From a virus: DNA of 24,027 nt. This document shows positions 9,790 through 19,675 of the stretch, piece after piece; positions within the stretch are counted from its first letter, which is position 1; every line of letters begins with the position of its first letter. The stretch is from IMG/VR virus record IMGVR_UViG_3300025133_000590, positions 1 to 24,027 of that record. One strand, 5' to 3'. The position numbers were made by a program, and so were the translations under genes. The notes under the pieces are model-generated. The model saw only the letters and a program-made list of their open reading frames with translations. It was not told the DNA's origin and did not search any database.

Positions 9790-10175
9790 ACACTTTGACC
9801 TCCTTTCCACTTAGTTAATTTTTGATAATCAGTATAATACATAGGGGGTTCTAATTCTCTTGTATTCCAAACAATCCAACATACACCACCTACACTTGAT
9901 ACCTGCACTACTTCATACACACCATGTTCTGTATCTACTATTTCACTCGTTCCTATTTGTGGCGTTAAATTATACATTCTACTAATTTCTCTTGATATTG
10001 TAGAAAGGTTCTCAACAATATATTTAACAATATCAGCCCTTTGAATGGGCACTCTTGCATCCACCTTTAATTTAATCGCACCCGTTTTATCACATACTTT
10101 ACATTTATTACCATCGCAAATAGGACAAGTAATTTCAGCAGGTAGTGTGGCTGGCAACATGATTCTTTTACTCAT
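9786..10175 (-). CDS. protein with DnaJ-like zinc motif, next to GroEL
   Basis: 129 residues. Near the N-terminus is CPICDGNKCKVCDKTG (Cys 17, 20, 25, 28), close to the CxxCxGxG repeats of the DnaJ Cys-rich domain but with only one zinc site. There is no J-domain (no HPD). The rest is a helix (DIVKYIVENLSTISREI) and a beta-rich end (VYEVVQVSSVGGVCWIVW). It follows GroEL by an ATGA overlap, so it could be a substrate-binding helper of the chaperonin, but that is guilt by association. GAGGAATTAAT serves its start. Confidence 0.55.
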   Translation of the reverse strand: MSKRIMLPATLPAEITCPICDGNKCKVCDKTGAIKLKVDARVPIQRADIVKYIVENLSTISREISRMYNLTPQIGTSEIVDTEHGVYEVVQVSSVGGVCWIVWNTRELEPPMYYTDYQKLTKWKGGQSV

Positions 10176-11725
10176 ATTAATTCCTCACTAGGTTTGCCCA
10201 CTAATACTTCTGTGGTAATAATCAAACCTGCTACTGACACGGCGGTTCTTAAACTACTCTTTACTACTTTAACGGGGTCTATTACCCCTGCGGAAAGTAG
10301 GTCGGTATATTCCTCAGTATTAGCATCAAATCCTACATTATCAACCAACCTTAACTTATCTACTGTATGACCGGCATTAGCACCAATTTGATACATGGGT
10401 TCTTTAATAGCATCCAACAAAAGAAATAAACCATTACTTCTCTCAAGTTTACCACCCGACAATATAGAATCTGTGCATTTATATAATTCAAGACCCCCAC
10501 CTAAAATAACACCGCCTTGAATAGCGGCCTTTGTCGCATTCAAAGCATCATCTAACCTTTCCATCCTTTCGGTTACTTCAATCTCAGTCGCACCACCTAC
10601 TTTGATAACCGCTACTCCTCCTGTTAATTTACCCAATCTCGCTTGAAGTTTTTCTTCTAACCAAGCGTTCTTAGCGGCGGGAATCAATTGCCTCAATTCT
10701 TCGCACCTACTATCTAAACCAATATTAGTTTTACCATCTGTTACAAAAACAGTATTGGTTCTATCTACTTTTATTGATTTAACTGAACCTAAATCCTCCA
10801 ATGTTACAGAAGAAATATCATCACCTAATTCATCAACAAAAACCTTACCACCAATTACTGCTCTAATATCTCTTAATATCTCTATTTGGTCATCTCCAAA
10901 ATCAGGGGCTTTAACTGCACACCCATTAAATGTCTTTTGAACAATATTCATTAATAAATTAGGATAGGCATTACCTTCAATTTGTTTCGCCATAATAAGT
11001 AGTGGCCTTCCTTCTTTGAGGGATAATTCTACTGCCGGTATTAAATCCTTAAAATTAGTAATTGTATGGTTGCACATTAACACTAACGCATTCTCCATAG
11101 AACAATTCGCCTTCTCTTTATCATTAATCATAGAAAAGTGCATGAAACCACTATCAATACTCAAACCTGCATTGGTTTCCCATGTAGTTTTTAATTCTTC
11201 ACCCCTCTTTACAGAAATAATACCATCATAACCGATTTGTTCCATTATATAGGAAATTAATTTCCCCAAAACGGAATCGTTGTTTGCCGCTATCGTAGCA
11301 ACATACTCTAAATCTTCTCTTGAAGTAATGGGTTTGGCCTCTTGTTCTAATTGGGCCACTACTAATTTTAGTGCCTCATCCAATTCTTGTTTAAGTTTTA
11401 CACTATCATAATCTAAATATTTTTCTTGCCAACCCAAAAGAATAGCCTGTGTTAATACACTCGCCGTTGTTGTCCCATCACCTGCATTTTCTTGTGCCTG
11501 TGAAGCCACATTTTGTAATAACTCTACTCCCATTTGAATAAACTCATCATCGGAAGCCACCGCTTTAGCAATAGTTACCCCATCGTTAATAATAATAGGA
11601 GGCCCGTTTCTATTACCCAACACTACTGTTTTAGCCTTTGGCCCTAATGTATATTTGACTGTATCGGCTACTAAGTTTACCCCTGCTAACAATTTTTCCT
11701 GTGCTTCTTTACCATATAATATCAT
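10172..11725 (-). CDS. groEL: group I chaperonin GroEL (Cpn60)
   Basis: A 517-residue bacterial-type chaperonin subunit forming an ATP-driven folding chamber. Recognised by TLGPKAKTVVLG (26-37), NDGVTIAK (47-54), the nucleotide-binding AGDGTTTASVL (81-91; D83 matches the catalytic Asp of the first site), GGVAVIKVGGATEIEVTERM, the second ATP-site stretch RLDDALNATKAAIQGGV with GGG following, and the C-terminal SVAGLIITTEVLV. It is shorter than the 548 residues of the E. coli protein and has no GGM tail. GroES lies immediately upstream with an ATGA overlap. Archaea normally use thermosomes (group II), so a group I pair amid archaeal replication genes is notable. It probably folds virus proteins such as capsid. 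Confidence 0.95.
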   Translation of the reverse strand: MILYGKEAQEKLLAGVNLVADTVKYTLGPKAKTVVLGNRNGPPIIINDGVTIAKAVASDDEFIQMGVELLQNVASQAQENAGDGTTTASVLTQAILLGWQEKYLDYDSVKLKQELDEALKLVVAQLEQEAKPITSREDLEYVATIAANNDSVLGKLISYIMEQIGYDGIISVKRGEELKTTWETNAGLSIDSGFMHFSMINDKEKANCSMENALVLMCNHTITNFKDLIPAVELSLKEGRPLLIMAKQIEGNAYPNLLMNIVQKTFNGCAVKAPDFGDDQIEILRDIRAVIGGKVFVDELGDDISSVTLEDLGSVKSIKVDRTNTVFVTDGKTNIGLDSRCEELRQLIPAAKNAWLEEKLQARLGKLTGGVAVIKVGGATEIEVTERMERLDDALNATKAAIQGGVILGGGLELYKCTDSILSGGKLERSNGLFLLLDAIKEPMYQIGANAGHTVDKLRLVDNVGFDANTEEYTDLLSAGVIDPVKVVKSSLRTAVSVAGLIITTEVLVGKPSEELI

Positions 11726-11958
11726 TCTACCACCGCCATTATTTCATTAAATCTTACTGCTACTAAACCATCCCCCAATTCTGTTGGATATTTGTTAGCA
11801 TAATATACTGTTTGACCCCTAATCCTTAATTCCAATTGTTCGGGCACTTCCTCACCTGCTGAAATCACTAAAGCAATATTACGCTTTACTGTAATAATAC
11901 CACTCGCAGTAGTGGTATCTATTGGTTGGATAATAACATATTCACCTACTGCTTTCAT
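11722..11958 (-). CDS. groES: GroES-like co-chaperonin (short)
   Basis: 78 residues, below the usual 95-100. The GroES barrel is clear: MKAVGEYVIIQPID, a shortened mobile loop TTASGIIT in place of the usual GGIVL region, ALVISAGEEV, then VYYANKYPTE and the final strand VRFNEIMAVVE. It caps the GroEL chamber. The gene directly precedes groEL (ATGA overlap). ATG 11958 has GGAGG about 6 nt upstream and forms TGATG with the upstream stop. The shortened loop suggests co-adaptation with the viral GroEL. Confidence 0.88.
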   Translation of the reverse strand: MKAVGEYVIIQPIDTTTASGIITVKRNIALVISAGEEVPEQLELRIRGQTVYYANKYPTELGDGLVAVRFNEIMAVVE

Positions 11959-12155
11959 CAAACCCCTCCTATGATGCCATCTTCTATTAATTGTCTACGA
12001 TTTTTCACCCAAGAAATTACAATAGCATTCGCATCTCTATAAGTCAAACCATAGAAATCTAATAAATAGGAAACCGAGCCAAACATATTACACTTACCCG
12101 ATTCTCTAAGCCTCTCTAAATACTTGTATTCTTTTATCCACTTTTTATTATACAT
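11958..12155 (-). CDS. hypothetical basic protein (65 aa)
   Basis: 65 residues starting MYNKKWIKEYKYLERLRESG, helical and basic, ending RRQLIEDGIIGGV. Not recognised. ATG 12155 was preferred over in-frame ATGs at 12170 and 12182 because GGAGAGG lies 6 nt upstream in the last codons of the preceding gene. It is coupled to groES (TGATG). The terminal Gly-Gly-Val was considered as a ubiquitin-like tail, but the body is helical, so that is unlikely. Confidence 0.5.
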   Translation of the reverse strand: MYNKKWIKEYKYLERLRESGKCNMFGSVSYLLDFYGLTYRDANAIVISWVKNRRQLIEDGIIGGV

Positions 12156-12156
12156 A

Positions 12157-12675
12157 CTAATCCTCTCCATAGAATGAATCAACCATATCTCTAGTTATAA
12201 TACCCATGTCCGTAGCCTCAGTTAATTGTTCTAACTGTTGTTTTAACTCATGTAATATTTGCCCCTTTGTTTCTTCATCAAAAATAACATATGGGGGCAA
12301 CACTCCATTTTGTGTAAAATACTTATACCACTTTTCATAGGGTTCGCCATTACCATCCTCAATAGAAAACAAATCTTGTGCTATTTCAAACATATTTCTC
12401 TCCAATTGGGCAGTATTACTATTAGTAATCTCATCAACGATGATACTACACAATTTTTCCAAATATGGCCTATCACCCGTTTCATAAGAATCTATAATTA
12501 CCTGTAATAATCTTTTGTTTTCATCACTAGCCTGACCGATATAATCCGCCGCAGTTTCAACACAAGAATATAATTGATTTGTATTGGGGGGTTCACACTC
12601 GCTACATACGGTTTGCCCATAATAAACCAATTCGCCACAACCACATACTTTACCCATTAAGTTTTTACCCATCAT
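12157..12675 (-). CDS. hypothetical protein with N-terminal zinc knuckles
   Basis: 172 residues. The N-terminus has CGCG (about 11-14) and CSEC (about 24-27), a short zinc ribbon. The rest is acidic and helical (NKRLLQVIIDSYETG, LERNMFEIAQDLFSIEDG, ILHELKQQLEQL). Two adjacent ATGs (12675 and 12672) compete; GGTGA upstream fits the second slightly better. It lies between the JAB protease and groES in one coupled operon. Function unknown. Confidence 0.55.
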   Translation of the reverse strand: MMGKNLMGKVCGCGELVYYGQTVCSECEPPNTNQLYSCVETAADYIGQASDENKRLLQVIIDSYETGDRPYLEKLCSIIVDEITNSNTAQLERNMFEIAQDLFSIEDGNGEPYEKWYKYFTQNGVLPPYVIFDEETKGQILHELKQQLEQLTEATDMGIITRDMVDSFYGED

Positions 12676-13154
12676 TCTTCACCTTCCATATAATCAAAAA
12701 CGGTTCTTTGTTTCTTAGACCAATCGGGTATATCATAATTCTTAAAAAAGAGTGTGTGGGTTTTATTACCCCTCACCCACTTCATTCTTTCATTATCCCC
12801 TAAAACTATTGCACTCTCCATGTGTAATTCCCAACATCTAATAGTAGACCAATCGGTGCTACTAAAATAGGCTGAACCAAAGGGGTGTGTGTGAATCCAA
12901 CACTTAATAGGTAGAGTTAGAGGTAGGCCATTAGCCCCTTCTAATTCTTTTTCAACCCCGACAAAATCCACAAAACTACCTGTCCCGTAATTGATAAAAA
13001 GACTATCGTTCTTATCTACAACAACCTGCACTTCTCTATCTTTATCAAAAGCAGTTAGACTCATTTCCCATATAACATCTAAGAAAGAAGCATCTTCGGC
13101 TTCCCCATTAAACGCATTCATTATTTCTTTTTTCCATTCTTTATTTTCTATCAT
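12672..13154 (-). CDS. JAB/MPN-domain metalloprotease (JAMM)
   Basis: 160 residues. A complete JAMM zinc signature is present: H88-x-H90, seven residues, S98, two residues, D101 (text HTHPFGSAYFSSTD), which binds zinc and activates water; a Glu on an early strand would be the general base (VQVVVDKND region). JAMM enzymes cut ubiquitin-like proteins at the bond after Gly-Gly, in precursors or conjugates. With the E1-like gene at 13510-14067 and the ubiquitin-like gene at 17926-18126 this suggests a modifier pathway. ATG 13154 (TAATG overlap, GGAGG 8 nt upstream) was chosen over an upstream TTG. Other uses of JAB domains, such as tail assembly as in lambda, remain possible. Confidence 0.85.
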   Translation of the reverse strand: MIENKEWKKEIMNAFNGEAEDASFLDVIWEMSLTAFDKDREVQVVVDKNDSLFINYGTGSFVDFVGVEKELEGANGLPLTLPIKCWIHTHPFGSAYFSSTDWSTIRCWELHMESAIVLGDNERMKWVRGNKTHTLFFKNYDIPDWSKKQRTVFDYMEGEE

Positions 13155-13348
13155 TATTCTTGCCTCCAAAACATTATTCTTTGTAGTAGGGTCTTGGGTA
13201 TTTTAACCGCTTCCTCTACCACTTCTGTTACACTCATTCTTTTTTTAGACCATTCATCATAAACTTCTTTCTTAACAAAACGGACATTACCGTTATCGTC
13301 TTTAGTATAGTATCTACCATTCTTTGCCTTATGTATCATTTCTTCCAT
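13154..13348 (-). CDS. hypothetical protein (64 aa)
   Basis: 64 residues, basic, starting MEEMIHKAKNGRYYTKDDNG and ending in a helix with KTLLQRIMFWRQE. The opening KNGRYYTKDDNGNVRFV looks like a short beta hairpin. No family known to me. GGTGGTTTAG serves the ATG. It lies between the small membrane protein and the JAB gene, coupled to JAB by TAATG, so it may belong to that pathway. Confidence 0.55.
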   Translation of the reverse strand: MEEMIHKAKNGRYYTKDDNGNVRFVKKEVYDEWSKKRMSVTEVVEEAVKIPKTLLQRIMFWRQE

Positions 13349-13513
13349 CTAAACCACCAACACTAACATTAACACAACAATAGTCATAACATTAACTCCA
13401 TTAACCATCATCAATATCTTATTGCTCCTCTTTACATTAGACAACAAATCTCCCAATAAAATATTAGTTATCTGTTGCGTTTCTACTGCTAATTCCATTG
13501 TCGTTTTGCTCAT
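13349..13513 (-). CDS. small single-span membrane protein (54 aa)
   Basis: 54 residues. A soluble N-terminal part (MSKTTMELAVETQQITNILL, then a short basic stretch KRSNK) is followed by a C-terminal hydrophobic segment (about 34-54, MMVNGVNVMTIVVLMLVLVV) long enough to cross a membrane once. The basic residues just before it suggest the N-terminus stays inside. The start overlaps the E1-like stop as ATGA, with GGTGGTGTCAGT upstream. It could be a membrane anchor or a holin-like protein; nothing in the sequence decides. Confidence 0.6.
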   Translation of the reverse strand: MSKTTMELAVETQQITNILLGDLLSNVKRSNKILMMVNGVNVMTIVVLMLVLVV

Positions 13514-14067
13514 ACTGACACCACCTTAAACTCATCCACTTCATCATCAGCAAAGAACCTTAATATCCACTCAGCACCCATTCCTGCCGCAATAATATGT
13601 GAAAAATGTTGTGTTGATACTTCACCGTTCCACTCATTACCTTGACATGAAAAACTACCTTCGGGGCCAGCCAATAATGTATCATACATCTTAGCATCAG
13701 CCCGATGAGAAATATAAGCACAATTTCTTCCTTGTGCTCTTAAATCAAGCCAACAATCACCATCTCTGTATAGGAGTCTGCGAACATCTAAATTATCAGC
13801 ACAACATACTACTAAATCATAACCTACTAACTGACTCGCCGTTAAAATAGGGTAGGTTTCGGCCCTTGCTATTTGATTCCTCCTTTGTAGTACACTCACT
13901 TTATGTTCCGTTTCATCTCCCTTCTCAAAGTTTTGATAAGTTAGGTTTTTGGTTTCTACTTTGTCGGGGTCATATACTGTCAATTCAAACAATTCTAACT
14001 TGGATAATATAGGAATTAAATAACTCCCTATTCCTCCCGCACCTATAATTAATATTTTCTTTTTCAT
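13510..14067 (-). CDS. E1-like/ThiF-family adenylating enzyme
   Basis: A 185-residue Rossmann protein of the ThiF/MoeB/UbaA family, which adenylates the C-terminal Gly of ubiquitin-like proteins. Visible: GAGGIG (9-14), TVYDPDKVETKNLTYQNF with D33 and N41 (the ATP-binding D-D-N-L pattern), VVCCADNLDVRRLL with D91, and a C-terminal GSFSC followed by IIAAGMGAEWILRFF, matching the position of the usual catalytic Cys (C141) and last helix. It is shorter than MoeB (about 250) and lacks the paired CxxC zinc sites. ATG 14067 has AAAGGAGG 7 nt upstream; the TTG two codons earlier is unlikely. Three genes separate it from the JAB gene in the same coupled string. Confidence 0.85.
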   Translation of the reverse strand: MKKKILIIGAGGIGSYLIPILSKLELFELTVYDPDKVETKNLTYQNFEKGDETEHKVSVLQRRNQIARAETYPILTASQLVGYDLVVCCADNLDVRRLLYRDGDCWLDLRAQGRNCAYISHRADAKMYDTLLAGPEGSFSCQGNEWNGEVSTQHFSHIIAAGMGAEWILRFFADDEVDEFKVVSV

Positions 14068-14069
14068 TT

Positions 14070-14207
14070 TCAATCCTCCTTTGTGATTTGATAGCCGGTT
14101 GCCATCTCAATATGCCATATCGCTTCGGCTTTTGTTTTGAAATACTTTGCACATTCCTCACCATCATCCATATGATTAACCTTCCAACATTTGTTTTTAT
14201 TTTTCAT
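14070..14207 (-). CDS. hypothetical small protein (45 aa)
   Basis: A 45-residue ORF starting MKNKNKCWKVNHMDDG and ending MATGYQITKED, with the pattern of a short beta hairpin and one helix (KTKAEAIWHIEMATG). It overlaps the TFB stop as ATGA and its last codons carry the AAAGGAGG used by the E1-like gene. The tight fit supports a real gene. Function unknown. Confidence 0.55.
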   Translation of the reverse strand: MKNKNKCWKVNHMDDGEECAKYFKTKAEAIWHIEMATGYQITKED

Positions 14208-15103
14208 TTTTTATCCCTCATTCCATTTAATACTTTATCGGGGGTAGTATTAACCCATTCTTTCTTACTATAATTTAACATATCTATCACCTTATTAGAA
14301 TTAATTCTAACAGTCAAATCCGATACCATTACCGCCCTACCTACTGCCTTCTGTGAAGTGTTCTGTGTGGGGTTAAGTAATTGGGTAGCATAGATAATAC
14401 CTGCTATTAAACCACTTGTTAAAGTCAAGCACCTCTCTTTAGCCATATTATACAAGGGTATGCCCACATCAAGACTTATCTTTAGCGATTCTCTTGTTAA
14501 ACCCAATTTGTTACCATACCTCTCAATATCTTCAATAATATTAATTCTCCCCAATACAAAGGGGCGACCAAACATACACGCCACTCTTTTAGCAAGTTTA
14601 GACGATAAGCCCATATGAGCACCATTATGTTGAATAATTTCATACAATGTAATGGGTATATTATTATCCTTTAGAGTGAAAAAAACAGTCGCCGCCACTC
14701 TTGCATCTAAAGGGAAACCCGTAGTAATTCTGTTTCTAACCATAACTCTATAATTAAAAGCCATTTGTTCTCTCAAAGCCTTTGTAACACCTAATTCACC
14801 CCCTAACATATTGCACCCTATCACACCTCTTTGGATGATACCTTTACTTTTGTGAACGGTTCTATTGTGGTTCTTTCTAAGCAATCTACCCATTTTACTA
14901 AAATCCTTTTTGCCCCTACTATCGGTCAAGGATATAAAAGAACCCAACCCTCCTATTTCGCTATGTTTATCGTAGTTATCATTACCAAATACATATTCTT
15001 CTAAGGGGTTTTCGTCTATTACATACCCACAACCAAAACAATAGGTTTCACCACTCTTTTCATCTTGCCTAATATCATTACTCTTACAATCAATACATAT
15101 CAT
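14204..15103 (-). CDS. tfb: transcription initiation factor TFB (TFIIB-like)
   Basis: 299 residues, the normal TFB length. The N-terminal zinc ribbon has C3, C6, C22 and C25 (MICIDCKS, then YCFGCGYVID), followed by a B-reader/linker region and two cyclin-fold repeats, the first around NYRVMVRNRITTGFP and the second around TRESLKISLDVGIPLYN with SGLIAGIIYATQ. TFB bridges TBP on the TATA box and RNA polymerase. A virus copy could steer host polymerase to virus promoters such as the repeated TTTATATAGG boxes. ATG 15103 has GAGTGG 5 nt upstream; a GTG three codons earlier is less likely. The ribbon alone rules out a bacterial host. Confidence 0.9.
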   Translation of the reverse strand: MICIDCKSNDIRQDEKSGETYCFGCGYVIDENPLEEYVFGNDNYDKHSEIGGLGSFISLTDSRGKKDFSKMGRLLRKNHNRTVHKSKGIIQRGVIGCNMLGGELGVTKALREQMAFNYRVMVRNRITTGFPLDARVAATVFFTLKDNNIPITLYEIIQHNGAHMGLSSKLAKRVACMFGRPFVLGRINIIEDIERYGNKLGLTRESLKISLDVGIPLYNMAKERCLTLTSGLIAGIIYATQLLNPTQNTSQKAVGRAVMVSDLTVRINSNKVIDMLNYSKKEWVNTTPDKVLNGMRDKK

Positions 15104-15245
15104 TTTTTCCACTCTCTATACTTATTATTTCTGCCCGTCTTTGTATTGTTCTCAACATTTCCATTATCTCTTTAATTTCCTTGAGAGTCAAAACCCAAAC
15201 TTCTTCACTTTCACACCATACTTGTATTTTAACCTCTTTGAACAT
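15090..15245 (-). CDS. hypothetical small protein (51 aa)
   Basis: A 51-residue ORF starting MFKEVKIQVWCESEEVWVLT, then a charged helix LKEIKEIMEMLRTIQRRAEI. Its ATG overlaps the upstream stop as TAATG, and its end overlaps the TFB start by 14 nt. The same overlap pattern is seen across the operon. Function unknown. Confidence 0.5.
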   Translation of the reverse strand: MFKEVKIQVWCESEEVWVLTLKEIKEIMEMLRTIQRRAEIISIESGKNDMY

Positions 15246-16345
15246 TAATTAGACCCCCAATATTCTAAGTTATCCCAATCCAACCTAAGTTCTTTCTGCC
15301 CATCAACATTTTTAGATGTTAAATGGTGTTTGATAGTGTTAACTATTTTAACTGTAAATACATCATTCAATAGAGCCAATGCCCTAGTAGCGAATTGGTC
15401 GCCCAATGATGAGTCTTTAGCCATGTTATCTATACAAATTGGCCCTCTCATACCGATTTCTTCTCCGGCATAAACAAAGGTAGATACTGCTTGAATGTTG
15501 GTTTTCATTTCAGCATCAGTTAATACCCAATCGGCCAACCTACCTCTCACATACATAGTCATGTTTTCTCCCTTTTTGGTTATTTTAATTCTGTCGGGAT
15601 ATTGCTTCTCCAAATCTAACATCAATTGTTTTGCTCTATCTTCTATAATATCACTCGTTCTATTTTGTTCAAGGAAAGCCAACATAACCTGCAATTGACT
15701 TTCAGTCGGTGGCGTTTCAAACAATTTAAGCCATAGATTCTTAGGGCTTAAAAACTTCCAAGAACCTCTTTTCTTCCCTTCCCAATAAAAAGACATGAAA
15801 GTTTCCATTTGTTTTATAGGAATATTAGCCCAAACACCATCACTCAATTCTAAAGCACACTCATCGGAAGAAATTAACCTTAGATTTAACCTAACATCTA
15901 TTCTTTTTCCTTCCTTGTAATAATGAAAGGGGGCTCTATTCTCCAAAGCATAGGATATAGACTCACTAACATTTAGATGATTCCACATATTTTTAGCCAA
16001 TATTGCCCCATCACTAACAAAACAAGATTTATAGACCACTCTCGCAAGAGCAAAGGCAAGATTATTCTTTGTTCCTGTTATACCATTAATTGAATATCTA
16101 TTTCCCTTTCTCCCTATTACAATACTATATTGGCTCTCTTTACCCAAAAAAACGACATTTTGCCCCATCTTCAAGTGCCCCATATGATAACTCATTGTGT
16201 TTTTAAGAGCCGCTAATACAGGATTATGGTTGGTTCTATCGGGAAAAACCGTTACTGACTCTGCCCAAAAGTTGGAGTTTTCCGCAACCATTTTTGTTGA
16301 GTAAGTTTTTCCTCCATCATCGGGCGACTTTATATTTATTTCCAT
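15245..16345 (-). CDS. conserved-looking hypothetical protein (366 aa)
   Basis: 366 residues, one of the largest unassigned proteins here. It is a mixed alpha/beta protein with conserved-looking stretches: NNLAFALARVVYKSCF, ENRAPFHYY, ALELSDGVWANIP, FLEQNRTSD, MYVRGRLADWVL, GPICIDN and GDQFATRALALL. It resembles in my memory unannotated proteins of marine viruses, but I can name no family. No membrane segment or signal peptide. GGAGGAAGATAA lies before the ATG. I looked for an E2-like active-site pattern, given the modifier genes nearby, and found none convincing. Confidence 0.7.
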   Translation of the reverse strand: MEINIKSPDDGGKTYSTKMVAENSNFWAESVTVFPDRTNHNPVLAALKNTMSYHMGHLKMGQNVVFLGKESQYSIVIGRKGNRYSINGITGTKNNLAFALARVVYKSCFVSDGAILAKNMWNHLNVSESISYALENRAPFHYYKEGKRIDVRLNLRLISSDECALELSDGVWANIPIKQMETFMSFYWEGKKRGSWKFLSPKNLWLKLFETPPTESQLQVMLAFLEQNRTSDIIEDRAKQLMLDLEKQYPDRIKITKKGENMTMYVRGRLADWVLTDAEMKTNIQAVSTFVYAGEEIGMRGPICIDNMAKDSSLGDQFATRALALLNDVFTVKIVNTIKHHLTSKNVDGQKELRLDWDNLEYWGSN

Positions 16346-16516
16346 TTATCTTCCTCCGTATATTTTTTTCTTATAACTAGCCACGCAATTATCGTGCACT
16401 TCCTTTCTTGCTTCAAGCGGGTGTAACAATTGACCCCCGCATATTCTACATCTAGTGGCTATTCTCTTTGAATAAGAATGGCGACTTTCAACATAATCGG
16501 GGTCTTTATCACTCAT
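16346..16516 (-). CDS. small zinc-finger-like protein (56 aa)
   Basis: 56 residues, basic, with CRICGG at 23-28 and H32...H41, C44 as likely partner ligands, so a one-zinc treble-clef-like motif is plausible. It starts MSDKDPDYVESRHSYSKR. GGGTGAAACCG precedes the ATG, and the end carries the GGAGG of the next gene. A nuclease-like HNH remnant was considered but the active-site histidines are not evident. Confidence 0.55.
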   Translation of the reverse strand: MSDKDPDYVESRHSYSKRIATRCRICGGQLLHPLEARKEVHDNCVASYKKKIYGGR

Positions 16517-16682
16517 CGGTTTCACCCTTCACAAAAAACTTTTGTTTTGAAATAACTATATGAGGGTATTGTTCAGTAAACTTAGTTACATTTTCTAATA
16601 CTTGCTCAATAGAAGTATAATCTTCAACCCATACACTACCATTAGACCTAAGTAGGGTTATGCGAAACTTAGTTTGTTCCAT
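16509..16682 (-). CDS. hypothetical small protein (57 aa)
   Basis: 57 residues with a beta-alpha-beta pattern (KFRITLLRSNGSVWVEDY, IEQVLENVTKF, HIVISKQKFFVKG). The family is unknown. AAAAAGGAGG about 7 nt upstream of the ATG is among the best ribosome sites in the window. It overlaps neighbours by 14 nt and 8 nt. Confidence 0.55.
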   Translation of the reverse strand: MEQTKFRITLLRSNGSVWVEDYTSIEQVLENVTKFTEQYPHIVISKQKFFVKGETDE

Positions 16683-16932
16683 TTTCAAACCTCCTTTTTA
16701 CCATATTCACAAACTCTCTATTACACCCTTCACATATTGGCGTACAATCATCGGGCCAAACTGCTTCGGTTAAGGAGGTTGAAACATCATGAATACTTTC
16801 CATATCCCAAAGACATTCACGGCAATAACCGCAGTTTTCTAACAAGTCTTGGGCATCATTTAGTTTTGCCTTTAGGTTTGTTATTTCTTCCTGTTCTTCT
16901 AATTGTTCTACTGCTTTACATATATGACACAT
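16669..16932 (-). CDS. Cys-rich zinc-finger-like protein (87 aa)
   Basis: 87 residues with CHIC at 2-5, CGYCREC at about 34-40 and CTPICEGC at about 63-70, enough for two zinc sites. A coiled-coil helix (VEQLEEQEEITNLKAKL) separates the first and second groups. It probably works as a protein- or nucleic-acid-binding adapter. The start overlaps the upstream stop by one base. Function unknown. Confidence 0.6.
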   Translation of the reverse strand: MCHICKAVEQLEEQEEITNLKAKLNDAQDLLENCGYCRECLWDMESIHDVSTSLTEAVWPDDCTPICEGCNREFVNMVKRRFENGTN

Positions 16933-17228
16933 TATTCTTCCTCTCCTAAATCCGACAATAGTGTTTGATAAATACCAAACACCTCATCCACACTCATTCT
17001 TCTCAAAGAAGCCCAAGATACTATTTTATTATTTACTCTAATTCTTTTAGCCATTTTACCTTGAACCGGCTTGGCGACCCTATTAGTTAAAACATAGGGG
17101 GCAAAACCATAACCGTCTTTTCTTTGCACTACTATTTTAGTAACAGTAGTTTTATATCCGCCCTTAACTCTATTGGGGCTTTGTTTTTCTCTCATCTCTC
17201 TTATCATTTCTGTCTTTGTTTTATCCAT
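16932..17228 (-). CDS. hypothetical basic protein (98 aa)
   Basis: 98 residues, strongly basic in the middle (GGYKTTVTKIVVQRKDG, then KMAKRIRVNNK) with an acidic C-terminus (LLSDLGEEE). The charge suggests nucleic-acid binding, but no domain is recognised. AAGGAGGAATAGAA just upstream, formed by the end of the preceding gene, serves the ATG. Confidence 0.55.
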   Translation of the reverse strand: MDKTKTEMIREMREKQSPNRVKGGYKTTVTKIVVQRKDGYGFAPYVLTNRVAKPVQGKMAKRIRVNNKIVSWASLRRMSVDEVFGIYQTLLSDLGEEE

Positions 17229-17230
17229 TT

Positions 17231-17527
17231 CTATTCCTCCTTGTTTGCTACATAGTATTCTAACTTATGTCTTGTTTCCTTAATGTATTCAATCAACCAC
17301 TTACGGGGTGAAACATTAACAGGTAATCTAACATTATCAAGTAAATATTGCACTATATGATTAATCTCACGCACAATATGGTTAGAATCATGCCGGTGCA
17401 TCATTTCTAATATGTTCTCCCACACATTAGTTCCATCTATTTCTCGTCTTTCGCTCTCTATCTCTAACATAATTAATTTGAAATCATCCCATCCTTCAAA
17501 ATAACTATTCATCTTTTTGTAAGTCAT
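17231..17527 (-). CDS. hypothetical helical protein (about 98 aa)
   Basis: About 98 residues, mainly helical (FKLIMLEIESERREI, HIVREINHIVQYLL, WLIEYIKETRHKLEYY). Not recognised. Two ATGs are possible, at 17527 and 17512; neither has a strong ribosome site. It overlaps the winged-helix gene upstream by 8-23 nt. Confidence 0.5.
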   Translation of the reverse strand: MTYKKMNSYFEGWDDFKLIMLEIESERREIDGTNVWENILEMMHRHDSNHIVREINHIVQYLLDNVRLPVNVSPRKWLIEYIKETRHKLEYYVANKEE

Positions 17528-17768
17528 CTCTTAACCCCCAAACACAAGCATTGTGGCCCTTTGCCCTAACGGTGCGTTCTCTTTTAACAAAAACTTTATT
17601 TTTACTCATAATATTCACCAATGAGTTCATTGTAGGGTTCCTTGTGTATGGTTTATTACACCGTTTTTTCTTTTGATACCTTAGTTTATCCCAAAGAGAA
17701 TAAGTATCTAAATCCCCTTGTTCTTTTAACAAACGCACAATGCGTTCTACTGTGTTTTTTGTTCCCAT
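17505..17768 (-). CDS. winged-helix-type protein, paralogue of the 5721-5942 product
   Basis: 87 residues from ATG 17768. It matches the small protein at 5721-5942 in order: VERIVRLLKEQGD, YSLWDKLR, YTRNP, then basic strands and a terminal VWGLRDD. The layout is that of a winged helix, with an insertion of basic residues (KKKRCNK) before the recognition helix. GGTGG lies 9 nt before ATG 17768; in-frame ATGs at 17774 and 17804 are alternatives. It is the first gene after the structured gap at 17769-17925, a typical place for a regulator. Confidence 0.6.
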   Translation of the reverse strand: MGTKNTVERIVRLLKEQGDLDTYSLWDKLRYQKKKRCNKPYTRNPTMNSLVNIMSKNKVFVKRERTVRAKGHNACVWGLRDDLQKDE

Positions 17769-17925
17769 TATCATTTCCCACCTTATATTATTACCCATAA
17801 CCACCGCTAGATAATCACCTAAAAGGCTTCTCTTGCCCTCTTAAGGGGGAATAAACACATTACATCTATAATGCCTACTCCCCCTTTTAGCGATTAATCA
17901 CTAAATGATTATTAGGTATCTAAAC
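17769..17925 (-). promoter_or_regulatory. structured intergenic gap, probable terminator/promoter
   Basis: This is the only clear gap inside the 17-kb leftward gene string between 1 and 18126 besides the one at 3493-3580. It contains an 8-bp perfect stem AAGGGGGA (17843-17850) with TCCCCCTT (17879-17886), a short palindrome AATCA-TTTAG-TGATT read on the minus strand, and an outer 7-bp pair ATAATCA (17811-17817) with TGATTAT (17906-17912). It may end the upstream transcript and start the next; no TATA box stands out. Confidence 0.4.
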
Positions 17926-18126
17926 TCAAATACCACCAACAATCGCCGGAGTCAAATCTACCATTTCAACCGAATCCCAATCAAATGTATTGATGTGTTC
18001 TCTTGAAACCATCTCTCCATCTGCGAAAATCCAATGTGTAGGATGGTCGTTGATTTGCTCAATTACTTCTGCTTTCATTAATTCTAGTTCTGTATGTCCT
18101 GTATCGTTTAATATTCTTAGTTTCAT
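17926..18126 (-). CDS. ubiquitin-like beta-grasp protein ending Gly-Gly-Ile
   Basis: 66 residues. It opens with a hairpin MKLRILNDTGHTELEL, as in ubiquitin and bacterial ubiquitin-like proteins (hydrophobic strand, turn with TG, second strand). A helix AEVIEQINDH follows, then strand HWIFADGEMV (compare ubiquitin RLIFAGKQL), then DSVEMVDLTPAIVGGI, which matches the last strand and the ThiS/MoaD-type P-x-x-x-GG tail. The Gly-Gly is followed by one Ile, so removal of that residue would be needed before activation. GGAGGAAAAAAT precedes the ATG, in the last codons of the upstream coiled-coil gene. Partners are likely the E1-like protein (13510-14067) and the JAMM protease (12672-13154). Use in sulfur transfer rather than conjugation is also possible. 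Confidence 0.72.
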   Translation of the reverse strand: MKLRILNDTGHTELELMKAEVIEQINDHPTHWIFADGEMVSREHINTFDWDSVEMVDLTPAIVGGI

Positions 18127-18416
18127 ATTTTTTCCTCCTGTTCTCCGGTCATGTTTTCACCATTGTCCGTAGTATCCTTTGTAACGCTCGCCCTATATAA
18201 AGGGGGTTGGGTCTTTAAGATGATGCGACCCAATGCGGTATAAAGGCTCTTTTCGTAGGTTTCTACCATTGTGCCTAGAGTTGTATTTTCTTCTTCAAGT
18301 TGGGTGATTCTATTTTCAACCGCATGAATTAGATTATTATGCTTCTCTTTCAATTTTATATATTGTAAATTGGTTTTATTCAATCTCTCTTGTAATTGTT
18401 CTTTAGTTTCTCTCAT
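18123..18416 (-). CDS. coiled-coil protein (97 aa)
   Basis: 97 residues. Residues 1-50 are an almost continuous coiled coil (KEQLQERLNKTNLQYIKLKE, then heptads through ENRITQLEEENTTL), followed by a disordered acidic tail. It should dimerise. Its coding sequence carries a TTTATATAGG box at 18192-18201, about 66 nt before the ubiquitin-like gene start. AAAGGAGG precedes its own ATG, and ATGA overlaps link both neighbours. Confidence 0.6.
   Translation of the reverse strand: MRETKEQLQERLNKTNLQYIKLKEKHNNLIHAVENRITQLEEENTTLGTMVETYEKSLYTALGRIILKTQPPLYRASVTKDTTDNGENMTGEQEEKI
18192..18201 (-). promoter_or_regulatory. TATA-like box TTTATATAGG, possible promoter of the ubiquitin-like gene
   Basis: The decamer TTTATATAGG on the minus strand is identical to the boxes at 23357-23366 (minus) and 23755-23764 (plus). 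An archaeal start site about 25-27 nt downstream would fall near 18166, leaving a 40-nt leader before the ubiquitin-like ATG. It lies inside the coiled-coil gene, so chance occurrence cannot be excluded. Confidence 0.35.
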
Positions 18417-19675
18417 TCTGCCCCCTCCTTTAATTGGGTTATTATTTTGCTCGCTTGAATAGATGTTGTGTTTGCGGGTATAATATACTCATTGTTACTT
18501 AATATACCTATATACCATGCTTGTTTACTTGTTATTGGTCTTGGTTTTTCACAAGTCTTTTTCACCAATAGTTTCAATTGCTTAGGGCTTAATTCTTTAC
18601 CCGCACTTAACATCCTCACCATATCAGTCAAAAAAACCCTATCATAGTTAGTTTCTCCCATATTTTCCGAAAATGGTTTAATGTCATAAAACTCACACAT
18701 TCTCTCAAACACTTCATTTGTTTCGTCTACCCTCAACCTTTCAGCGATTAGACACTCAATTCTTTTTTGGTCTACATCACCGGCACTTTCAGCCGACTTT
18801 TTATCCTGTTCTATTCTCATTAACTCATTTTGTCTTTTTTGCTCATCACGGGCAATTCTTTGTATGCGCCAAAGTTCAGCCCTTTTTTCATCCTGTATTT
18901 TCTTATCTTCTGCGGCCTGTCTAATCCTTTCCTGTTCTTCTGTAATCATATCCCGATACTTCTGCTGAGTCAAATAAAACAATTGAAGGTCAGCCCATAG
19001 TCTTTCATTAGGATAACCCCTTGTATCTATTTGCCTATGCTTATTGTCGGGGTGATTCCAACGCCATACAATAGAAGCCATTTTGTAACCATATTGATTC
19101 ATTTTACCTTCACTTCTTTTGCGAATAACAGTAGTATTTTCATAATGGCTAGTGTGGTAATTATATCTCCTATTTTTCACCCTAACATTGAACCTCAAAT
19201 CCAATTCTCTAACTTCCTCAAACCATTCAGTAAATTGTTCACCGTGTAAATCCCACCACCAAGCGGCCTTCAAGGATTTAACCTGTTCTGTTATCCACTC
19301 GTCTATCATTTCTTCGGTGATATTTTCTTCCTTCCAGCCCTTTTCTTCTACTAAGTGCCTCAAGACCATGTATGAATTGATATGGTCGCTCCCTACTATC
19401 TCTAACACATTGGTTACAGTATTCTCTATCTCAAAATGCCACACTATATTATGCCCACACAAACAAGCATGGGGGTGAGTATTGTGTTCAGCAGGTAATG
19501 TTTCCATAGCATCATCACTAAAGGGAATATACCATGTATTGCCCGTTACAACCCACTCATCCTTAGCATCATTATAGTTATCAGCCTCGGACAATGCAAC
19601 CATTTTGGCCTTCAATATTTTGTCCCAACGGCCATTCCTTAGTGCTCGTCTTGGTAATACTTCTTCAAAATCCAT
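18413..19675 (-). CDS. CGH-motif protein with long coiled coil (420 aa)
   Basis: 420 residues. Near 71-105 is CLCGHNIVWHFEIENT followed by LEIVGSDHI, a zinc-ribbon-like pattern known from phage and plasmid proteins of unknown role (Cys-x-Cys-Gly-His then V-G-S/N). Residues about 245-310 form a charged coiled coil (QKYRDMITEEQERIRQAAED and on). The C-terminus has two short repeats of the SPKQLKLL and TSKQAWYIGIL type, seen at the ends of many phage proteins that bind DNA. It is the largest gene of the early block, with GGAGGAATAAAA before the ATG. A role in DNA handling is plausible, unproven. Confidence 0.6.
   Translation of the reverse strand: MDFEEVLPRRALRNGRWDKILKAKMVALSEADNYNDAKDEWVVTGNTWYIPFSDDAMETLPAEHNTHPHACLCGHNIVWHFEIENTVTNVLEIVGSDHINSYMVLRHLVEEKGWKEENITEEMIDEWITEQVKSLKAAWWWDLHGEQFTEWFEEVRELDLRFNVRVKNRRYNYHTSHYENTTVIRKRSEGKMNQYGYKMASIVWRWNHPDNKHRQIDTRGYPNERLWADLQLFYLTQQKYRDMITEEQERIRQAAEDKKIQDEKRAELWRIQRIARDEQKRQNELMRIEQDKKSAESAGDVDQKRIECLIAERLRVDETNEVFERMCEFYDIKPFSENMGETNYDRVFLTDMVRMLSAGKELSPKQLKLLVKKTCEKPRPITSKQAWYIGILSNNEYIIPANTTSIQASKIITQLKEGAE

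Follow-up and report, generated by a model that had tools for sequence, protein, structure and literature searches.

A predicted E2-independent ubiquitin-like modification module conserved in marine magroviruses

Analysis of a 24,027-base stretch of viral DNA (IMG/VR record IMGVR_UViG_3300025133_000590, positions 1 to 24,027; "the window" below means this whole stretch) revealed genes for a small ubiquitin-like protein (the modifier), a ThiF/E1-like adenylating enzyme (the E1) and a JAMM/MPN+ metalloprotease (the JAMM). Together they probably form a core module of magroviruses for reversible, E2-independent ubiquitin-like protein modification, resembling the SAMPylation of archaea, in which small archaeal modifier proteins (SAMPs) are attached to other proteins. 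Sequence comparison and structure prediction establish that a modifier, an E1 and a JAMM, each predicted to be competent, are conserved together. The initial annotation of the window had proposed a SAMPylation-like pathway made of these parts, and the proposal is supported by the structural model of the modifier and by the co-occurrence of the genes in related viruses.

The window was recognized as a magrovirus fragment because it contains Pfam matches to the RFC small subunit, ATP-dependent DNA ligase, Cpn60/GroEL and a TFB-like factor and because its relatives, with which it shares synteny, include many contigs of about 85 to 100 kb. The clearly identifiable genes are all on the minus strand. 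This gene content agrees with the description of Aoguangviridae and other Magrovirales by the International Committee on Taxonomy of Viruses, in which GroEL/ES are documented (PMC10768690). According to the literature, the hosts of magroviruses are Poseidoniales.

The predicted modifier

The modifier gene (17926..18126, minus strand) is preceded by an AGGAGG Shine-Dalgarno sequence just 5' of its ATG and encodes 66 amino acids ending in DLTPAIVGGI, that is, in VGG followed by one isoleucine. Sequence searches with this protein alone returned nothing convincing in Pfam, PHROG, NCBIfam or the Protein Data Bank (PDB). Its fold was predicted with AlphaFold2 (AF2) from an alignment of 70 viral relatives. 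The resulting model (predicted local distance difference test [pLDDT], 81.5) contains strands at residues 2-5, 12-15, 31-35, 38-40 and 55-60 and a helix at residues 18-27, in the order E-E-H-E-E-E (E, strand; H, helix), followed by a disordered tail. A Foldseek search of the PDB with this model returned, among the best 50 matches, nearly only ubiquitin, NEDD8, SUMO, ISG15, MoaD and Caldiarchaeum ubiquitin. Pfam ThiS matched 7 of the 70 relatives (best E = 8.4e-4), and a few relatives matched the ThiS model TIGR01683 or the SAMP1 model NF041918 (SAMP1, E = 0.03). The protein with the TPAIVGGI tail, which had been called a beta-grasp protein from its sequence, thus models as one, and its assignment as a ubiquitin-like beta-grasp is supported by the AF2 model, the Foldseek matches and these family matches to its relatives. 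Comparison of the modifier profile with Escherichia coli ThiS and MoaD gave weak scores, with the C termini in register at the diglycine (GG). Matches of 23 modifiers to Inhibitor_I24 (PinA), with a best E value of about 1e-3, were taken as chance or an effect of composition.

The GG motif closes the conserved part of the protein and is invariant in the modifiers of all 93 distinct modifier/E1/JAMM triples found in the retrieved marine contigs. The residues that follow it vary in number (none in 11 modifiers, one in 27, two in 53, seven in 1 and nine in 1) and in identity (Y, C, SL, NY, NL and others). This pattern, a GG that stays constant ahead of a short extension that drifts, is the one expected of a modifier precursor that is processed. 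The single residue described after Gly-Gly in the initial annotation is present in the window (Ile), but this length is not constant, as the relatives have tails of 0 to 9 residues. Since 85 of the 93 modifiers contain zero or one lysine, long poly-chains would be unlikely. Among six neighboring genes that were compared, those for the modifier and the E1 are the best conserved (median pairwise identities of 0.62 and 0.56, respectively, versus 0.25 to 0.42), and their median ratios of nonsynonymous to synonymous substitution (dN/dS) are 0.20 and 0.23, versus 0.39 to 0.62 for the others.

The E1-like enzyme

The predicted E1 (187 amino acids; minus strand, 13510..14073 from a TTG start codon or to 14067 from an ATG) is a minimal ThiF-like adenylating enzyme. 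It matched Pfam ThiF with E = 2.5e-14 (53.4 bits against a cutoff of 28.1), which agrees with the earlier assignment of 13510-14067 to a ThiF/E1-like enzyme, and its AF2 model (pLDDT, 90.2) had UBA5, ThiF, MccB and Cap2 as the best Foldseek matches. It also matched ThiF and MoeB. The assignment can be refined in that the protein is not an equivalog of UbaA: it scored 27.8 bits against the cutoff of 450 for NF047750 and, unlike UbaA and MoeB, has no paired CxxC zinc motifs. The GxGGxG loop and residues D35, D37, N43, Q47, K58, D93/N94, D110, R112 and R116 are invariant in 93 of 93 homologs, as is Cys143 with its surrounding SCQ motif. The AF2 model places Cys143 ahead of the last long helix, in a loop predicted with low confidence (blocks 131-150). 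ThiF-family enzymes have, at the matching position, a loop over the bound tail of the ubiquitin-like protein.

The JAMM protease

The predicted metalloprotease (165 amino acids; minus strand, 12672..13169 from a TTG or to 13154 from an ATG) contains HTHPFGSAYFSSTD, corresponding to H-x-H-x7-S-x2-D, together with an upstream glutamate, Glu46. The full motif reported initially for 12672-13154 is thus present, and it is complete in 93 of 93 triples; E46, H93, H95, S103 and D106 are invariant across the 92 JAMM homologs that could be aligned. The window protein alone fell below the Prok-JAB cutoff (E = 0.002), and 50 of 54 relatives matched this family. A profile search of the PDB revealed AMSH-LP (E = 8e-5), the Rpn11 homolog of Caldiarchaeum (E = 0.0016) and STAMBP, matched via the metal-binding segment.

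The motif is also complete in the 11 triples in which no residue follows the GG of the modifier, and precursor maturation therefore cannot be the sole task of the JAMM. An intact JAMM beside ready-made GG ends favors a role in deconjugation. Of the two activities originally suggested for the protease, reversal of conjugation is accordingly the one favored by this pattern, whereas maturation would be unneeded in 11 of the 93 triples.

Co-occurrence in related viruses

The three genes share both strand and order in 93 of 93 triples. To avoid selection by the trio itself, the contigs for a census were picked by terminase alone; the predicted sliding-clamp open reading frame (ORF; 1859-2656) and RFC were unusable as independent virus markers. 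Among 26 contigs selected in this way, the modifier was present in 24, the E1 in 25 and the JAMM in 25. Of 13 contigs in a further group with a more diverged terminase, 10 had the modifier and 10 the E1. The missing modifier was traced to the contig end in two contigs (G013 and G014, with the E1 about 3.6 kb away from that end). One incomplete record (G056) has the modifier without a detected E1, and in three fragments (G051, G057 and G062) neither the modifier nor the E1 was found. These gaps fit contig truncation or fragmentary records, and genuine loss is possible in the three fragments. The trio is a near-universal core gene set of magroviruses. Independent carriage of the three genes in related viruses, which the initial annotation had named as evidence against the pathway, was not seen either in the gene order of the triples or in the terminase-based census. 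Chance as an explanation is excluded by the conservation of the GG, of the JAMM motif and of the ATP-site residues of the E1, each in 93 of 93 viral homologs.

When the modifier alignment was compared with 84,980 cellular genomes, only three contigs matched, all from the "Altibacter sp." metagenome-assembled genome EAC109 (L239, L240 and L241). These are probably mis-binned magrovirus sequences.

One contig of 184,733 bases (IMGVR_UViG_3300021958_000021; L213/L232) carries the whole module twice, with the copies about 90 kb apart. It probably represents two joined magrovirus genomes or a concatemer.

Proposed mechanism and alternatives

In the mechanism proposed here, the JAMM would trim the 0 to 2 (rarely more) residues after GG where they are present, and the E1 would adenylate the terminal glycine, possibly with formation of a thioester on Cys143. 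The modifier would then be joined, without an E2, directly to lysine residues in proteins of the host or the virus, in the manner of SAMPs, and the JAMM would reverse the conjugation. In archaea, lysine attachment of SAMPs requires UbaA, and removal is performed by HvJAMM1 (PMC4443979). Regulatory proteins of the host could be targets, and so could proteins of the virion. The transcription apparatus is a guess, based on the usual location of the module beside a viral TFB. In Haloferax, modification by SAMP2 sends TBP2 to the proteasome (PMC4895103).

Conjugation is a prediction, as is any protein that would carry the modifier, and several points weigh against this interpretation. Searched by itself, the window modifier matched no known ubiquitin-like protein significantly in sequence, and its Foldseek scores are modest (best E value, 5e-3; template modeling score, about 0.4 to 0.5). 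The E1 has Tyr46 where the NLxRQ motif has an arginine and is too short for the N-terminal extension of MoeB/UbaA, and Cys143, although conserved, is a candidate catalytic cysteine. PF14461, the only E2 family searched for, was unmatched in 22 contigs and likewise in control genomes, and an unusual E2 or E3, for example a 366-amino-acid protein encoded between the modifier and the E1, is conceivable. Since synteny is conserved over the whole region, the presence of the three genes together does little by itself to show that they act jointly.

Alternatively, the modifier might be a sulfur carrier like ThiS, MoaD or CysO, with a thiocarboxylate made by the E1 feeding tRNA thiolation or the synthesis of a cofactor or cysteine and the JAMM releasing the product. 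A model for such a release is provided by Mec, which acts on CysO-Cys. ThiS is among the best of the weak family matches of the modifier, the E1 resembles ThiF and MoeB, and archaeal SAMP1 serves molybdopterin synthesis as well (PMC4443979). However, matches to rhodanese (0 of 26), PAPS reductase (0 of 26) and PALP cysteine synthase (0 of 22) were not found in the viral contigs, in searches in which the controls matched, and the JAMM is retained in all triples, even those with a GG-ended modifier. Sulfur delivery, which the initial annotation had named among the possible functions, is weakened by the lack of these enzymes in the viral contigs; host sulfur enzymes could serve instead, and we regard this explanation as unlikely.

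It is less probable still that the E1 and the JAMM interfere with modifiers or conjugates of the host, belonging to a ubiquitin-like or a defense system, and that the viral ubiquitin-like protein is a decoy. Viruses often exploit host ubiquitin systems, and the E1 matches the E1 domains of anti-phage E1-E2/Cap2 families, but strong purifying selection on the full set, including the GG-ended modifier, is more in keeping with a modifier that is active than with a decoy. The least probable of the alternatives is a role in virion morphogenesis, in which the ubiquitin-like protein and the JAB protease would serve in the assembly or processing of proteins of the tail or capsid without tagging host proteins, like TAPI and TAPK of lambda. 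The tail clusters of lambda and T1 indeed hold such pairs (PMC1779556). The magrovirus genes, in contrast, sit with replication, transcription and chaperonin genes, tens of kilobases from the terminase; they include an E1, which the tail system does not, and no NlpC/P60 domain was seen.

Neighboring genes

All of the following genes are on the minus strand. Two small ORFs without Pfam matches lie between the E1 and the JAMM. One (13349..13513; 54 amino acids) overlaps the E1 stop codon by 4 nucleotides and has a C-terminal hydrophobic stretch, by which it might anchor the module at a membrane; the other (13154..13348; 64 amino acids) overlaps the start of the JAMM gene. A TFB-like transcription factor with a TFIIB zinc ribbon (14204..15112; Pfam Zn_Ribbon_TF, 2.4e-7) is encoded just upstream of the E1, and a TFB lies between the modifier and the E1 in 72 of 93 relatives. 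The 366-amino-acid protein (15245..16345) lies between the same two genes in 93 of 93. It belongs to no recognized family, with nothing above the cutoff in Pfam, PHROG or NCBIfam scans, and evolves fast; it is a candidate adaptor or target-selecting factor and thus a possible partner of the module. No E2 family was matched among the scanned neighbors in general Pfam or NCBIfam scans. Upstream of the modifier, the stop codon of an ORF for a coiled-coil-like protein of 97 amino acids (18123..18416) overlaps the modifier start codon (ATGA), followed by a gene for a 420-amino-acid protein (18413..19675) that is present in 65 of 93 relatives and showed no family above the cutoff in Pfam or NCBIfam.

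Downstream of the JAMM lies a GroES/GroEL-like chaperonin pair (10172..11961), a hallmark of magroviruses. The GroEL matched Pfam Cpn60 (1.8e-39); the GroES ORF (11722-11961) had no Pfam match and is named for its position and size. The trio therefore lies among genes for ligase, RFC, TFB and GroEL, and the terminase gene is tens of kilobases away.

Significance

A MoeB/ThiF protein was described with RaFAH in 2021 as the product of one of the auxiliary genes that occur most often in archaeal viruses and was tied to ubiquitination; the account, as far as its text was accessible, covers the E1 and mentions neither a modifier nor a protease (PMC8276007). The searchable magrovirus literature, a scope outside which Philosof 2017 and Prabhu 2025 fall, makes no mention of ThiF, ubiquitin or JAB. 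Within a search that did not extend to these key magrovirus papers, no prior report of the complete trio was found, and the E1 gene as well as phage pairs of a ubiquitin-like protein and a JAB domain are already known.

There is a reasonable, somewhat better than even chance that infection by magroviruses has at its core a self-sufficient system of reversible tagging that consists of modifier, E1 and deconjugase and lacks an E2. If so, it would be the first pathway of that kind to be encoded in full by a virus, and it could redirect host transcription or proteolysis or modify virions. In the surface ocean, Poseidoniales belong to the most abundant archaea, and protein tagging would be central to the infection of archaea by viruses, beyond its place in host defense. 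The module would also offer a minimal conjugation system of three genes without an E2, easily reconstituted, and would test how early ubiquitin-like signaling entered the conflict between viruses and hosts. Pairs of E1 and JAMM genes in bacterial phages suggest that kindred chemistry exists in other viruses.

Comparison with known systems

Among annotated phages, the window E1 matched crAss-like phages only, and the window modifier and JAMM had no match. In crAss001 (gp76/gp77), DAC15, Flavobacterium phage FpV4 and Dulem virus 41, a ThiF-like E1 adjoins a JAMM with HSHxxMxxFFSGxD, and the E1 of crAss001 aligned with the magrovirus E1 in hhalign (98.3%). In these bacterial-phage pairs, the E1 or the JAMM carries extra regions, in contrast to the magrovirus proteins. 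A small GG-ended ubiquitin-like protein was not recognized within about 4 kb of the pair in DAC15, FpV4 and Dulem virus 41 or within 12 kb in crAss001. The phage pairs (L238:10220-12618, equal to crAss001 gp77-gp76, and L454, L455 and L457) are labeled "thiamine biosynthesis protein," "metalloprotease domain" or hypothetical. A search of BFVD revealed E1-like proteins from a PRTRC-annotated Caudovirales phage and from Acinetobacter phage ME3.

Residues 28-40 of crAss001 gp76 (L238:11467-12618), near the N terminus of this E1, contain IIIQTAIVGGSTY, which strikingly resembles the magrovirus modifier tail VVLTQAIVGGSxY. The likeness is probably a coincidence; the segment could be a pseudosubstrate. 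A modifier fused to gp76 was considered and rejected, as the roughly 27 preceding residues are too few for a beta-grasp.

The tail assembly proteins I and K of lambda and T1 are likewise a virus-encoded ubiquitin-like protein and a JAB domain (PMC1779556), but they work without an E1, in tail assembly, and are fused to NlpC/P60. The bacterial anti-phage systems Bil, Bub, 6A and CBASS Cap2/Cap3 have a JAB protease, and the E1 fold is shared with Cap2 and BubCD. They differ in having both an E1 and an E2, often fused, whereas the magrovirus E1 is a stand-alone ThiF domain of 187 amino acids that is viral and lies outside a defense island. The PRTRC cassette, composed of a ThiF-like E1 (TIGR03736), JAB protein A (TIGR03735) and the small ubiquitin-like protein C, is similar in being an E1 and JAB set borne by mobile elements, and PRTRC_ThiF is the best-matching model among the E1 relatives (4.2e-18). 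The window E1, however, scored 39 against a cutoff of 144.75, the JAMM gave one marginal PRTRC_A match and the modifier matched none. Other PRTRC genes were not found among the scanned neighbors.

A close parallel in composition is that with SAMPylation in Haloferax volcanii (SAMP1-3, UbaA and HvJAMM1; PMC4443979, PMC4895103). Both sets consist of a GG-ended beta-grasp protein, a single E1 of the ThiF/MoeB/UbaA superfamily and a JAMM, in an archaeal setting. No E2 or E3 has been found in either, the E2 search in the magrovirus contigs having covered PF14461 and general Pfam and NCBIfam scans of the neighbors. The magrovirus genes differ in being virus-encoded and clustered, and conjugation by their products is predicted. 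The magrovirus E1 has 187 amino acids, compared with 270 positions in the UbaA model, and a tyrosine replaces the arginine of the NLxRQ motif. The magrovirus modifiers are matched marginally by the SAMP model and carry tails of 0 to 9 residues, such that most of them would need maturation.

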